DNA from: an uncultured Clostridia bacterium
Lineage (GTDB): Bacteria > Bacillota > Clostridia > Christensenellales > Borkfalkiaceae
Length of the DNA stretch: 64,000 nt
Direction: 5' to 3'
Assembly: GCA_944328445.1 (NCBI GenBank)
Contig: CALVHO010000006.1
Coordinates: forward strand, 1-64,000
Shown here: piece by piece, positions 26,496-35,035 of the stretch
Numbering within the stretch: the stretch's first letter is position 1
Layout: every line of letters begins with the position of its first letter
Notes under the pieces: model-generated
Databases searched by the model: none
What the model was told of the DNA's origin: nothing
What the model saw: the letters and a program-made list of their open reading frames with translations, nothing else
Program-made: the position numbers and the translations under genes

Positions 26496-28721
26496 TCACT
26501 TCCCCGCGTTGAAGTTGATCAGGCAACCGCTCAGGATGATCTTACGCTCGTCGGGCGTGAGCTGGCCGACGGTGAAGGTGACGTCCTTGACGGAATGGCC
26601 GCTGATGTGTTTGGCGGGGATCTTGGCAGCGCCGTCCGCGATCAGGCGGTCGATGTTTTCGATGTAGATGTAGTCGCCCACCTTGCACTTGAATTTATCG
26701 GCCTGCAACGGCAGCATGCCCCAGTTGATGAGGTTGCTGCGGTAGCGCTTGGTGGCGTACTCCTGCGCGATGTTGGCGATGCCGCCCAAAACGCGCTGGC
26801 AGGACGCCGCCTGTTCGCGCGCGGAACCGTCGCCCGGCTTTACGGCCACGACGCAGCTGCCGTAGATCGTGCCCTCGCGGATCTCCACGCCGTTGAGGTG
26901 CTTTGTCACGCTTTCGGGCAGCGAGCCCGTTTCGCGGCGGACGGCCTCCTCGGCCTGCACCGCCTTGGCCCTGCCCACGTACGCGGGGTCCTTGCGCGAG
27001 AGCGCAAACTCGGCCAGCTTCATGGGGTTGGAGCGGTAGGAAGAGGTCTCGCCCGAGGGGATAAGCTCGTCCGTGGTGGTCACGGGATCGTCGATCACGC
27101 TGACCGCCTTGATGAGGACGTGGCGGCCGAGGGGGATCATTTCCGGCCAGTCGGCGATGTTGGGGCCGTATTTCAGTTCGGCGTCGCGGTGCGCCTTGCC
27201 CGCGCCGTGGTAGACGCGGTTTTTATAGATCTCCCCGTCAAAGCAGTATTTTTTGACCTTTTTGGTGTATTCCGCTTCGGTGGCGGGCGTGAGCCTGCCG
27301 CCGTTTGCAGCGGTGGCCGCGATGGAACGCGCGTCCATCAGCGCCACGGCCGCCAGCTGCCCCGCCGCGGGCTTGCTGCCCTCGCGGCTCTCAAAATTGC
27401 GCGTCGTGTGGCGGATGGAGAGCCCGTTGTTGGCGGGCACGTCCCCCGCGCCGAAGCACGGGCCGCAGAATGCCGTCTTGACCACGGCGCCCGCATCCAT
27501 CAGCGTGCCGACGTAGCCGTTCTCCACCAGCGCCTTGTACACGGGCTGGCTGGACGGGTAGACGCTGAGCGAAAATTCGTCTGCGCCCGTCGACTTGCCT
27601 TTGAGGATCTCGCACGCCTCGGCGATGTTCTCGTACATGCCGCCCGCGCAGCCGGCGATGATGCCCTGGCTCACGTAGAGCCCGTCGGAGCGGATCTTGT
27701 CGGTCAGGGTGAACTTGTCGTCCCCGCGCAGTTTGCGCCCCGCCGACTCCACCTCTTCCAGGATCTCGCGGGGATGGTCCATGACCTCGCGGATGGTGTA
27801 GGCGTTGCTGGGATGGAAGGGAAGCGCGATCATCGGCTCGATGGCCGAGAGGTTGACGGTGATGCCGTAATCGTAATAGGCGGGGTCGGAAGGGTGCAGT
27901 TCCTTGAAGTCTTTCTCCCGGCCGTGCGTCTTGTAGTATTCGCGGGTCTTTTCGTCCGTCTCCCAGATGGAGGAAAGGCAGGCCGTTTCCGTCGTCATCA
28001 CGTCGATGCCGTTGCGGTAGTCCATGGACAGGTTTTTGATGCCGGGGCCGACAAATTCGAGGATCTTGTTCTTGACGAACCCGTTCTTGAACACGGCCCC
28101 GCAAAGAGCGATGGCCACGTCCTGCGGGCCGACGCCCTTTTTCAGGTTGCCGCGCAGGTAGACGGCGACGACGTCGGGGCGGGCGATGTCATACGTCTTG
28201 TTGAGGATCTGTTTGACGAGCTCGGGCCCGCCCTCACCCACCGCCAGCGTGCCCAGGGCGCCGTAGCGGGTGTGCGAATCGCTGCCGAGGATCATGCGGC
28301 CGACTTTGGCCTCCACCTCGCGCATGTACTGGTGGATGACCGCCAGGTGGGGCGGCACGAAATCGGCGCCGTACTTTTTGGCCGCCGAAAGGCCGAAAAC
28401 GTGGTCGTCCTCGTTGATGGTGCCCCCCACCGCGCACAGCGAATTGTGGCAGTTGGTGAGCACGTACGGGAGCGGGAATTCTTTGAGGCCGCTGGCCTTG
28501 GCCGTCTGGATGATGCCGACGTACGTGATGTCGTGCGAGGTGATGGCGTCGAACTGCAACTGCATGTTCTGTTCGCCGCCGCGGTTGTGCGCGCGCAGGA
28601 TGCCGTAGGCCATCGTGCCCTTGCGCGCCCTTTCCTTCTGCTCGGACGTGAGGAACGCCCTGTTTTCCTTGACGAGCGCGCCGTTCATGTAGTAACAGCC
28701 GCCGCGAATGAGTTTGATCAT
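26496..28721 (-). CDS. Aconitase-superfamily hydratase (YbhJ-like)
   Basis: A 741-residue aconitase-fold protein of the YbhJ group, whose reaction is unknown. Cluster-ligand cysteines are in place: C358 (IAGCAGG), C419 and C422 (FCGPCFG), so a [4Fe-4S] enzyme is expected. Other superfamily landmarks are [20 protein letters not shown] and the swivel-domain motif [14 protein letters not shown] with [17 protein letters not shown]. Other TCA-cycle genes are absent nearby. The ATG at 28721 has GGAGAGAAAGG directly upstream, and a consensus promoter (28761-28789) drives it. It is larger than homoaconitase small/large subunits and is a single chain. Confidence 0.88.
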
Positions 28722-28760
28722 CCTTTCTCTCCTCGGTTTGCGGATTTTGGGTATGACACT

Positions 28761-28789
28761 ATTATATAGCGCAGCGCGCATTTTGTCAA
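28761..28789 (-). promoter_or_regulatory. Consensus promoter of the hydratase gene
   Basis: Minus strand TTGACA (28789-28784), 17-base spacer, TATAAT (28766-28761): a perfect housekeeping consensus, the strongest-looking promoter in the window. Confidence 0.9.
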
Positions 28790-28871: not shown

Positions 28872-29282
28872 TCAGCGGCGGCCGCTGCGGTTTTTGACCT
28901 GCAACCTGGCAAAGGCGCGCGCCAGCGCCGCGCGGTTGAGCTTGAACTCTGCCGCGCTGCGGTTGCGGCGCAGCTGCTCTTCGGCGCGCTCTTTGGCCTC
29001 GGCGGCGCGGCGGGCGTTGATGTCCTCCGGCCACTCCACGGCCTGCGCGAAGGCGATGGTCTCGTCGGGGCGGACCTCGATGAACCCCTCGCTCATGAAC
29101 GCCTCGCGCGTGACGCCGCCCTCGGTGATGGAGATGGTGCCCGGTTCCGTAGCAAAGACCATGGGCTGGTGCCCCGCCATGATGGTGCAGGCCCCGCCCA
29201 GCGAAGGGATGTTCACGCTCTCCACTTCACCGCGGTAAAAGCTCTTTTCGGGCGTGATGATCTCCAAAAAGAATGTGTTCAT
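28872..29282 (-). CDS. atpC: F-type ATP synthase subunit epsilon
   Basis: Epsilon is the rotor subunit that couples gamma to the c-ring and inhibits hydrolysis. The 136-residue protein has the beta-sandwich (FFLEIITPEKSFYRGEVESVNIPSLGG, IMAGHQPMVFATEPGTI, GFIEVRPDETIAF) and a C-terminal two-helix domain from about residue 88, unusually Arg/Ala-rich. It follows atpD by 11 bases and ends the operon. Confidence 0.95.
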   Translation of the reverse strand: MNTFFLEIITPEKSFYRGEVESVNIPSLGGACTIMAGHQPMVFATEPGTISITEGGVTREAFMSEGFIEVRPDETIAFAQAVEWPEDINARRAAEAKERAEEQLRRNRSAAEFKLNRAALARAFARLQVKNRSGRR

Positions 29283-29293
29283 CCCCTCCCTCC

Positions 29294-31568
<2,275 letters not shown>

Positions 31569-31569
31569 G

Positions 31570-33132
31570 TTATACGGCCTCCGCGGAGCTTTCCTCGGCG
31601 CCTTCCGCCGCGGGCGGAGCGGCCTCCTCTTCCACGACGGAGGAGATGTAGGCCTCGGCGGCGGCGAGGATCTTCTGGCGCAGCGCCTCGAATACGGGCT
31701 TATCGGGGTCGATCGCCTCCAACAGAGCGGGCTCGTTGGCGTGCAGGTGCCCGAGGATGCCCGCATTGCAGGCCGTCACCTGTTTCGCGGGGATCCTGTC
31801 GATGAGGTCGCTCTGCGAAACGAGCAGCAGCACGATCATTTCGCGCACCGTATAGTTGCGGTACTGCGGCTGCTTCAAGGTATCCGTCATCTTTACGCCG
31901 CGCGAAAGGGTCTTCTGTGTTTCGGCGTCGAGGTCGGAGCCGAACTGCATGAACACGGCAAGCTCGCGGTACTGGGCGAGGTTGACGCGCAGCTGCCCCG
32001 AGATGCGGCGGATGGCGGCGCGCTGGGCGCTGCCGCCCACGCGCGAGACGGACAGCCCGACGTTGACCGCGGGGCGGACGCCGCTGTTAAACAGCTCGCT
32101 TTCCAGGTAGATCTGCCCGTCTGTGATGGAGATGACGTTGGTGGGGATGTACGCGGAGATGTCCCCTGCCAGCGTTTCGACAATGGGCAGCGCCGTGATG
32201 GAGCCGCCGCCGAGCGCGTCCGAAAGCCTGGCCGCCCGTTCGAGGAGGCGGGAATGCAGGTAGAACACGTCGCCCGGGTAGGCCTCGCGGCCCGAGGGGC
32301 GTTTGAGCAGCAGGCTCATGGCGCGGTAGGCCACCGCGTGTTTGGAGAGGTCGTCGTAGACGATGAGCACGTCCTTCCCCTTGTACATGAAGTACTCGGC
32401 GAGGGCGCAGCCGCTGTACGGGGCGATGTATTGCAGGGGCACGGCGTCGTCGGCCGTGGCGCAGACGACGCAGGTGTAGTCCATGGCGCCGCCATTGCGG
32501 AGCGTCTGCAAGATCTTGGCCAGAGAGGAGGCCTTCTGCCCGATGGAGACGTAGATACAGATCACATCCTCTCCCCGTTGGTTGAGGATGGTATCGACGG
32601 CGATGGCCGTCTTGCCCGTCTGCCTGTCCCCGATGATCAGCTCGCGCTGGCCCCGCCCGATGGGGATCATGCTGTCGATGGCGAGGATGCCCGTTTGCAG
32701 CGGCGTATCCACCTTGGCGCGGTCCATGATGGCGGGCGCGGGGAATTCCACGGGGCGGGTGCCCGCAGCCTCGGCCTCTTCCATGCCGTCGATGGCGTGG
32801 CCCAGCGGGTCGACGACGCGGCCGAGCAGCCCCTCGCCCACGCGCATGTGCACCGTTTCGCCCGTCGAATAGACGAGGTCGCCGTAGCGCACCCCTTCCC
32901 CTTCCGAGAGCAGGACGGCGCCGACGTTGTCCTCTTCGAGGTTGAGCGCGAGGGCGCGGCCGCCGCCGTGCACCTCCAAAAGCTCGTTGTATTTGACGTC
33001 GTGAAGGCCGGAAATGCGCACGATCCCGTCGCCCGAATAGACGATGCGGCCGCAGGCGCGCTCGTCGATGGAGACGCGCGCGTTTGCGATCTTTTCGCGG
33101 ATATCCTTTCCGATGGCGTTGATGTCGATCAT
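31570..33132 (-). CDS. atpA: F-type ATP synthase subunit alpha
   Basis: Non-catalytic nucleotide-binding subunit of F1. The 520-residue protein has the P-loop GDRQTGKTAIAVDTILNQ, the VYVSIGQKASS region, LIVYDDLSKHAVAYR and SGVRPAVNVGLSVSRVG with the arginine finger region. The N-terminal helix IGKDIREKIANA, which in other enzymes binds the N-terminal domain of delta, is kept even though delta lacks that domain here. The C terminus carries an added acidic, Ala/Glu/Pro-rich tail. The ATG at 33132 gives the normal start MIDINAI. Confidence 0.97.
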   Translation of the reverse strand: MIDINAIGKDIREKIANARVSIDERACGRIVYSGDGIVRISGLHDVKYNELLEVHGGGRALALNLEEDNVGAVLLSEGEGVRYGDLVYSTGETVHMRVGEGLLGRVVDPLGHAIDGMEEAEAAGTRPVEFPAPAIMDRAKVDTPLQTGILAIDSMIPIGRGQRELIIGDRQTGKTAIAVDTILNQRGEDVICIYVSIGQKASSLAKILQTLRNGGAMDYTCVVCATADDAVPLQYIAPYSGCALAEYFMYKGKDVLIVYDDLSKHAVAYRAMSLLLKRPSGREAYPGDVFYLHSRLLERAARLSDALGGGSITALPIVETLAGDISAYIPTNVISITDGQIYLESELFNSGVRPAVNVGLSVSRVGGSAQRAAIRRISGQLRVNLAQYRELAVFMQFGSDLDAETQKTLSRGVKMTDTLKQPQYRNYTVREMIVLLLVSQSDLIDRIPAKQVTACNAGILGHLHANEPALLEAIDPDKPVFEALRQKILAAAEAYISSVVEEEAAPPAAEGAEESSAEAV

Positions 33133-33166: not shown

Positions 33167-33388
33167 TCAGACGGAGCGGCGCACCGTTTCCAGCCGCGTG
33201 CGGACGGAGCCGTCGTAGATGGTGTCCCCGATCTGGATGACAATGCCGCCGAGGATGGACGGGTCAAGGGTGTAGCGCACGTTCGGGCAGCCCCGCTGCT
33301 CGGCGAACGCCGCGATCTTGGCCTGCGTCTCCGCGTCGGCCTGCATGGCCAGCGTGACCCTGGCCGTACCCTTTTCAGCGCTTTTCAT
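33167..33388 (-). CDS. atpH: F-type ATP synthase subunit delta, C-terminal domain only
   Basis: Delta links the peripheral stalk to F1. The product is only 73 residues against about 175-185 in relatives. What remains is the C-terminal domain, with VTLAMQADAETQAKIAAFA, RYTLDPSILGGIVIQIGD and the highly conserved YDGSVRTRLETVRR end. The N-terminal six-helix bundle that grips the alpha subunits is missing. It is not displaced by a frameshift: the gene overlaps the end of atpF by 14 bases, and that frame is a complete b subunit, so there is no room upstream. The length equals the C-terminal domain almost exactly. It begins MKSAEKGT at 33388. Confidence 0.85.
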   Translation of the reverse strand: MKSAEKGTARVTLAMQADAETQAKIAAFAEQRGCPNVRYTLDPSILGGIVIQIGDTIYDGSVRTRLETVRRSV

Positions 33389-33923
33389 GGCTGTTCCACT
33401 CCGTGAGGCAGTCCTCGATCAGCTTTTTGTTGTCCTCGGGGGCGATGTTCTTTTCGAGCACCTTTTCCGCCACGAGCACGGATACGTCCGCGATCTGCCG
33501 CTCGATCTCCTTTTGCAGGCCGCGGCGCTCCTCGCCGAGCGAGCGCTCGGTCTGGGCGATCATGTTTTTGGCCTCGTCGCGGGCGCGGCCGACGATGTCG
33601 TCCGCGCGGCGGTTGGCCTCCTTCACGGCGTTTTCGCGGATGACGGCCGCTTCCTTCTTCGCGTCGGAGAGCACCTGCTCGGTGCTTTCCTTCATCTGCT
33701 TGACCTCTTCGCTGAGGGCGGCGTTGTCCTTTTCGATCTTGCGGATCTTTTCCTGCCGCTCGCGGATCATCTTTTTCACGGGTTTGAAGAGCAGAAAATA
33801 CAGCCCGACCGTGAGCACGACGAGGTTGAAGAGATGGAGCACGACGCTCTGCCATTCGAGGCCGAGCGCCTCGAACGGGTTGGCCAAAAGCTGTGCCGCC
33901 GTTTGCATGAACACGTTTGTCAT
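33375..33923 (-). CDS. atpF: F-type ATP synthase subunit b
   Basis: Peripheral-stalk subunit. The 182-residue product has one membrane helix at about residues 25-45 (SVVLHLFNLVVLTVGLYFLLF) after a short amphipathic start, then a long charged coiled coil with heptad-like Glu/Lys spacing to the end. It is slightly longer than the usual 160-170. No delta domain is fused to it. The ATG at 33923 is preferred over an in-frame TTG five codons upstream; neither has a clear ribosome site. Its last 14 bases overlap atpH. Confidence 0.93.
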   Translation of the reverse strand: MTNVFMQTAAQLLANPFEALGLEWQSVVLHLFNLVVLTVGLYFLLFKPVKKMIRERQEKIRKIEKDNAALSEEVKQMKESTEQVLSDAKKEAAVIRENAVKEANRRADDIVGRARDEAKNMIAQTERSLGEERRGLQKEIERQIADVSVLVAEKVLEKNIAPEDNKKLIEDCLTEWNSHEKR

Positions 33924-33965: not shown

Positions 33966-34223
33966 TCACGATACGAAGATGAGGAGGATGCTCACGAGCA
34001 GGCCGTAAATGGCCGTCGTTTCGGCAAAGGCGAGGCCGATCATGAGCATGGTACGGATCTTGCCGACGGCCTCGGGCTGGCGCGCCGTCGCCTCGACGGC
34101 TTTGCCCGTGGCGATGCCCATGCCGACGCCCGCGCCGATGCCCGTCAGGGCCGCGATGCCCGCGCCGAGAAGGGCGCCGTCGGTGGCGAGAAAATTCGCG
34201 ATCGTTGCGATCAAAAGTTCCAT
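33966..34223 (-). CDS. atpE: F-type ATP synthase subunit c
   Basis: The 85-residue proteolipid forms the rotor ring. Two membrane helices flank the ARQPEA loop, and the ion-carrying Glu68 sits in [11 protein letters not shown]. The residues after the Glu (Thr-Thr, and Tyr73) resemble sodium-type rings, but the position of the first-helix glutamine needed in sodium rings is Met35 ([11 protein letters not shown]). Proton coupling is therefore more likely, though not settled. GGAGG lies upstream of the ATG. It lies between atpB and atpF. Confidence 0.96.
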
Positions 34224-34252: not shown

Positions 34253-35035
34253 TCAAAGCGCCCGGGCTTCCCGCGCGCGCTTGGGCTTTGGTTTGCGCAT
34301 CTTCCTCGGCACCTTTTCGGCCGCCTCCTGCACGAACGTCAGCGTGAGCGAGGCGAACACGTACGACTGGATAAAGGCGTGGAAGAGCGTGAACAGCGGC
34401 GTGAGGATGGCGGGCAGAACCAGCGGCAGCCCGACATACCAGATCCCCTCGACGAGGATGTACACCATGTCCATGATGACCATGCCGCTGAGGATGCTGC
34501 CGAACAGGCGGAAAGTCATGGAGACAGGCACCGCCAGGTCGGAAACGATGTTGATGGGGTTGAGGTAGTGTTTGAAGCGGCGCGCGCGGTTGGACGCGAA
34601 GCCGATGGTATGGATGAAGAGGAAGGTGCAAAGGGCCAACGCCAGGCAGGCGCCGAGGTCGGCGATGGCGGGCCGCAGCCCGAACAGCTCGATGAGTACG
34701 CCGAAACAGATGTAGGCGGCCGCCCCCAGCGTATACGGGCCCATGATGGTGCCGTAACGGTCGCACATCTCGTCGGCGCTCTTGTCGAAAAAGCTCACCA
34801 GCCACTCCACGAACATCTGCATGGGCGAAGGCGTCGTCTTCCAGCGGCGGATGACGGTCAGCCGCAGGATGAGCGCCGCCAGGAGCAGGAGCACGACGAC
34901 GACAAAGCCCGAAAAGACGCTGCCGTTGACGACGAACCAGCCCGCTTCGATGACGTGGTTTTCGGTATCGGGAAAGATCTCGTCGCGCAGGCCGCTGAAA
35001 TCGATGGCCAGAAGCTGCGCGGACAAATTCGCCAT
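34253..35035 (-). CDS. atpB: F-type ATP synthase subunit a
   Basis: The 260-residue membrane subunit forms the ion half-channels. The essential Arg is in the MTFRLFGSILSGMVI helix, with the NPINIVSDLAVPVS and FTLFHAFIQSYVFASLTLTFV segments typical of the family. The C terminus has a basic tail after the last helix (KPKPKRAREARAL). GGAGG precedes the ATG. It is the first gene of the operon; there is no atpI before it. Confidence 0.95.
   Translation of the reverse strand: MANLSAQLLAIDFSGLRDEIFPDTENHVIEAGWFVVNGSVFSGFVVVVLLLLAALILRLTVIRRWKTTPSPMQMFVEWLVSFFDKSADEMCDRYGTIMGPYTLGAAAYICFGVLIELFGLRPAIADLGACLALALCTFLFIHTIGFASNRARRFKHYLNPINIVSDLAVPVSMTFRLFGSILSGMVIMDMVYILVEGIWYVGLPLVLPAILTPLFTLFHAFIQSYVFASLTLTFVQEAAEKVPRKMRKPKPKRAREARAL

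Follow-up and report, generated by a model that had tools for sequence, protein, structure and literature searches.

The window, the whole stretch of 64,000 nucleotides analysed here, carries on its minus strand an operon of eight ATP synthase genes in the order a, c, b, delta, alpha, gamma, beta and epsilon. Its genes are:

34253 to 35035, minus strand: atpB, a subunit, 260 aa (family profile matches)
33966 to 34223, minus strand: atpE, c subunit, 85 aa (family profile matches)
33375 to 33923, minus strand: atpF, b subunit, complete, 182 aa (PF00430 3-132 of 132)
33167 to 33388, minus strand: atpH, C-terminal (b-binding) domain of delta alone, 73 aa, a stand-alone gene (Pfam OSCP and fold match)
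31570 to 33132, minus strand: atpA, alpha subunit, 520 aa (family profile match)
30675 to 31568, minus strand: atpG, gamma subunit, 297 aa (family profile matches)
29294 to 30682, minus strand: atpD, beta subunit, 462 aa (family profile match)
28872 to 29282, minus strand: atpC, epsilon subunit, 136 aa, C-terminal helical domain present (family profile matches)

By its profile matches, with eight genes and the standard subunits, this is an F-type (standard F1Fo) operon. The alpha, beta, gamma, b, c and epsilon subunits all scored above the cut-offs of the standard NCBIfam models, and near-complete family matches for every subunit except delta agree with a reading made earlier from the sequence only, which had taken the other subunits to be full length. 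The c subunit (33966-34223) contains the stretch AETTAIY. It appears to have a methionine at the position of the Na+-site glutamine in the c subunit of Ilyobacter, and on this comparison protons look the likelier coupling ion. Next to the operon, on the same strand (window 26496-28781), is a gene for an aconitase-superfamily hydratase (NCBIfam NF008503, 1208 bits).

The atpH reading frame (33167 to 33388, minus strand) has 73 codons and begins with ATG. It had been described as the C-terminal domain only, which was confirmed by its match to Pfam OSCP (PF00213; E 7.8e-14), in which residues 6-72 align to positions 102-171 of a profile of 172. The NCBIfam delta model TIGR01145 aligned over 102-170 of 172 with a score of 42.1, under its cut-off of 57.5, which is to be expected when only half the protein is present. 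A predicted structure of the 73-aa product (pLDDT 79.8) matched the delta/OSCP C-domains of many solved ATP synthases in Foldseek, which mainly confirms the domain. With regard to the canonical features of delta/OSCP, the C-terminal b-binding domain is present and complete and the N-terminal six-helix domain is absent. The end of the complete atpF runs 14 nt into the start of atpH, which leaves no space for the missing half of delta, just as the sequence-only reading had held. Neither is atpH fused to alpha, since its stop codon lies at 33167 and alpha starts at 33132 in a different frame.

The same gene, of 71-79 aa, was found before alpha in 16 other members of the genus, and the gene and its layout were the same in all 17 genus loci read. 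The dN/dS of atpH was 0.05-0.28 in the ten most similar pairs, with a median of 0.30 over 85 pairs with dS<2; the gene is under purifying selection in the genus. The stop codon of b and the start of the delta C-domain lie 226-387 nt apart in the 30 full-delta operons measured, compared with 1-59 nt in 27 operons with a stand-alone C-domain, and this bimodal spacing indicates that the coding stretch of the N-domain is cleanly missing. Comparison of atpH across relatives had been suggested earlier as a check, and the equal gene in the 16 other genus members, together with the bimodal spacing, rules out a frameshift. The earlier reading had also allowed that a full delta at this place in close relatives would speak against it; there is none within the genus, and a full delta does occur in three genomes of the family (G026, G083 and G044), in operons of a different lineage. 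Although the genome is a draft in 41 contigs, an artefact or decaying gene (a frameshift, a misassembly or a pseudogene of a full delta) is scarcely credible, as misassembly and pseudogene are refuted by the genus-wide presence, the dN/dS and the gene spacing, and matches occur in many other families.

The sole OSCP match in the 1.92-Mb genome (96.5% complete) was atpH itself. A delta-NTD profile built from 19 delta N-domains found none in the window genome and gave a best E of 0.03 in 16 genus mates; on five held-out full-delta genomes, used as a control, it gave E 6.7e-19 to 2.7e-29. The search also took in G296, which is neither a control nor a genus mate. A separate delta N-domain, which the sequence-only reading had proposed to look for, was thus found in the genome by neither the OSCP nor the NTD profile. 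That the domain is encoded nowhere in the genome supports the earlier claim that the stator is attached differently here.

The window alpha is unextended, with an N-terminal segment of the usual length. It keeps the N-terminal helix (INAIGKDIREKI) without the canonical PEEISxIIKxQIKxY. When the 24 residues before the alpha barrel were compared at equal core identity (0.55-0.72, rows without an anchor being left out), they were 47% identical among full-delta species, where they carry this motif, as against 18% and 21% among N-domain-less species with stand-alone and fused C-domains, respectively. Judged from these alignments, the constraint on the alpha N-terminal sequence is relaxed where the N-domain is gone, which fits a lost contact with the delta N-domain. 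The earlier remark about a retained alpha N-terminal helix holds for the helix itself, but its sequence has been released.

These observations bear on the possibility that the place of the delta N-domain on top of F1 has been taken by another protein or by an extended b or alpha. Fast divergence may hide such a substitute from profile searches, and relatives with two C-domains have a longer C-terminus on b. However, there is no additional gene between b and alpha, the alpha N-terminal segment is of normal length, the delta-NTD profile finds none, and the N-domain-binding sequence of alpha is not conserved; we regard such a replacement as very unlikely. The earlier interpretation thus stands as to a different attachment of the stator and is unsupported as to a protein that supplies the contact: no candidate was found, alpha is unextended, and in many relatives the C-domain sits covalently on the N-terminus of alpha, which points to a direct junction between the delta C-domain (deltaC) and alpha.

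Loss of the delta N-domain is old and shared with many relatives of this bacterium, and it is common in the order. The following counts are approximate, being taken from sampled genomes and from the matches listed only. In the family, 34 of 151 genomes had an OSCP match, and atpA was likewise found in 34 of 151. In the order, 186 of 396 sampled genomes had a match; delta was of full length in 33 among the matches listed, and a hand count put the remaining ones at about 39 with short and about 75 with long frames. About 150 of the 186 matches, roughly four fifths, are not of full length, and in the genomes of the order without a full delta the C-domain mostly forms a separate gene or sits on the alpha N-terminus. 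The N-domain part was absent in about 28 among the weakest 46 of 217 matches in the class sample, and in about 6 of 172 in the phylum sample.

Some further features of these operons were seen. Some OSCP matches of the order sample span a stop codon and begin at profile positions 19-50, where we suspect a delta-N-like tail on b; such tails are present in some relatives. Many full-delta operons of the order (L063-L081) have a short epsilon of about 86-95 aa without C-terminal helices, and in N-domain-less operons (L083-L102) epsilon has about 133-152 aa.

About 100 operons were read for their layout. Delta was observed as a full-length protein, as a stand-alone C-domain, as a C-domain on the alpha N-terminus, as tandem C-domains on alpha, and in a single b-deltaC-alpha chain. 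The tandem type, with two C-domains fused to alpha, was found in four genomes, G144, G090, G082 and G134, and at the loci L016, L022, L028 and L029, and Pfam recognised two OSCP stretches in both examples examined. The b subunit has a longer C-terminus, with an apparently repeated motif, at L016 (tandem) and at L027 (single C-domain). One stand-alone delta of about 131 aa (L084, G280) holds a partial and a complete C-domain in tandem and is unfused. A possible intermediate occurs at L180 (G741) and in further f48 genomes, where alpha is fused to a delta whose N-domain is shortened, the C-domain being preceded by about 100 residues; L183 and L185, close relatives of L180, have the short-N-domain delta as a separate gene.

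The one-chain b-deltaC-alpha form was found in five genomes, G407, G432, G424, G341 and G472 (loci L111, L116, L119, L188 and L074, the last of these in G407), as open frames of 746-791 aa that start with a hydrophobic segment typical of b. In G432, G424, G341 and G472 this gene is the single atpA. A separate b-like gene precedes it at G407, G432, G424 and G472; no separate b gene was picked up at the locus L119. The b part of the three-way fusion scored 24.1 and 20.4 bits, below the Pfam curated cut-off of 28, and gave no report for L119 and L074. An AlphaFold model of the G432 chain starts with a long N-terminal helix, after which come, in this order, a second b helix, deltaC, the alpha N-helix and alpha, and its three best PDB matches are three chains of 9JC1, the engineered Bacillus PS3 enzyme discussed below. 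Two atp operons each, one with a full delta and one N-domain-less, were found in G044 (L077/L078) and G407 (L073/L074), both of which are drafts in which contamination is possible.

A tree of alpha and beta from 106 operons (LG+G4) was made quickly, is unrooted and has some rows half filled. On it the N-domain switches between present and absent at least 5 times, and the C-domain between fused and free 12 times, 9 of these among N-domain-less rows; as the tree is unrooted, such counts alone do not separate gain from loss. A single N-domain-less clade was rejected on this quick, unrooted tree (p-AU 2e-54), so that either the change in the N-domain was repeated or operons moved between lineages. 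Operons of the same family fall in several places of the tree, which makes whole-operon transfer between lineages likely, as far as such a tree can indicate. Free and fused C-domains interchange on it, as expected if both have the same role.

In the textbook F-type ATP synthase, with its single peripheral stalk and single a subunit, nothing but the c-ring determines how many ions an ATP costs; F1 always contains three alpha subunits. How the alpha N-termini are used in ordinary enzymes is described in the main text of Ueno et al. 2025 (PMC12229609): one touches the C-terminal region of delta, and two touch its N-domain on the three-fold axis. We think it rather probable that atpH encodes a working minimal delta, whose C-domain joins b2 to alpha by itself and would thereby permit more than one stalk, the number of stalks being our inference. 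Each deltaC would hold the C-termini of one b2 dimer and, on its other side, the N-terminal segment of a single alpha. Once the three-fold axis is free of the N-domain, nothing would distinguish the three alpha N-termini, and the enzyme may then have two or even three deltaC-b2-a stalks. Extra stalks would move more ions per ATP, and with a higher ion/ATP ratio an Rnf-bearing anaerobe could make ATP even when its ion-motive force is low. RnfC is encoded in the genome (453 bits), which makes an Rnf ion gradient likely, and a high ratio would, we infer, suit a low gradient.

Relatives appear to make the same junction covalent, as deltaC-alpha, deltaC-deltaC-alpha or b-deltaC-alpha. As there are three alpha per F1, a b-deltaC-alpha chain that escapes cutting after translation would supply each F1 with three b-type anchors; fused chains could be open to proteolysis, or free alpha could come from internal starts. 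The b-deltaC-alpha form is the strongest genetic hint of multi-stalk enzymes; the free form fixes no copy number, and a free deltaC could still serve once per enzyme.

Under the main alternative, the minimal delta would work with a single stalk: deltaC would sit on b2 and one alpha, two alpha N-termini would be empty, and the N-domain would have been dispensable and lost. Since delta has a gene of its own here, it need not be present three times; the b and a genes are ordinary and present in one copy each; and the engineered enzyme included single-stalk particles, by the main text of PMC12229609. Against this, the same text identifies the N-domain as what limits the number of stalks. Relatives have repeatedly fused deltaC to alpha, so that each F1 must hold three deltaC where the chains stay uncut, and four of the five b-deltaC-alpha genomes have no other alpha. 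Taken together, we find a single-stalk enzyme somewhat unlikely. The preferred reading, a minimal delta that permits several stalks, leads to a wider and more tentative proposal, which we consider possible: that multi-stalk ATP synthases occur naturally and commonly in the order, having arisen repeatedly when the delta N-domain was lost, the window representing the route through a free deltaC, and one lineage having locked the arrangement in through b-deltaC-alpha, where every alpha brings a membrane-anchored b arm of its own.

The main text of the 2025 engineering study (PMC12229609) shows that removal of the N-domain with fusion of the C-domain to alpha lifts the one-stalk limit. Our survey finds N-domain loss in nature, in free and covalent forms, including chains in which each alpha has its own b. 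Among these are concrete candidates for enzymes that are multi-stalk by nature and for anaerobes that make ATP at a low ion-motive force. The fused type is already published; the unfused type of the window and the three-part fusion appear to be unreported. A literature search for a stand-alone C-domain delta, tandem C-domains on alpha and b-deltaC-alpha, with most subscription journals outside its reach, found no report of them.

Among known systems, the mycobacterial b-delta fusion resembles the forms described here in having stalk subunits in one chain. It is unlike them in not being joined to alpha and in that the window delta aligns only to the end of the chain; mycobacterial delta keeps its N-domain. 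The N-ATPase (alternate F1F0) is an F-type enzyme with an altered peripheral stalk and without the usual delta (PMC5706428). It has no delta at all and a longer b, whereas the window has a delta C-domain and a b of 182 aa. Membership of this class was rejected, as the window subunits score below the alternate-F1F0 cut-offs (alpha 601 against 750.5, beta 586.5 against 752, b 44 against 224.7).

The best sequence match (E 1e-9) and the best fold match of the window delta are to Chloroflexus aurantiacus (PDB 9ITJ, 9ITK). For 9ITJ and related structures, 12 delta chains occur in 6 entries, two per entry on average, and in two chains of 9ITK only about 70 delta residues are modelled. The C. aurantiacus delta differs in having 157 aa, with sequence preceding the C-domain.

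Another close system is the natural deltaDeltaN-alpha type. According to the main text of PMC12229609, Acidaminococcus fermentans and two UniProt entries have an N-domain-less delta-alpha fusion, and the authors predict multi-stalk enzymes in nature, A. fermentans included. The window shares with this type the loss of the N-domain and the retention of the C-domain; its C-domain is not fused to alpha, unlike that of A. fermentans (which we compare by its description there), and the fusion is found in many relatives. The stand-alone, double-C-domain and b-deltaC-alpha forms appear to go unmentioned in that main text. In the Bacillus PS3 enzyme of Ueno et al., by the same account, the delta N-domain was deleted and the C-domain fused to alpha; the product had as many as three b2 stalks and three a subunits, with an H+/ATP ratio of 5.8 against 3.0. 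The fusion was chosen because the authors feared unstable binding of a free deltaDeltaN; the window suggests that a free C-domain may suffice. The engineered enzyme (9JC1) is man-made and fused, whereas the window delta is a separate small gene, and among the natural relatives there are also some with two C-domains on each alpha, or with b attached. Like the window operon, it has no delta N-domain and a C-domain that links b2 and alpha, and the fused relatives share its layout.
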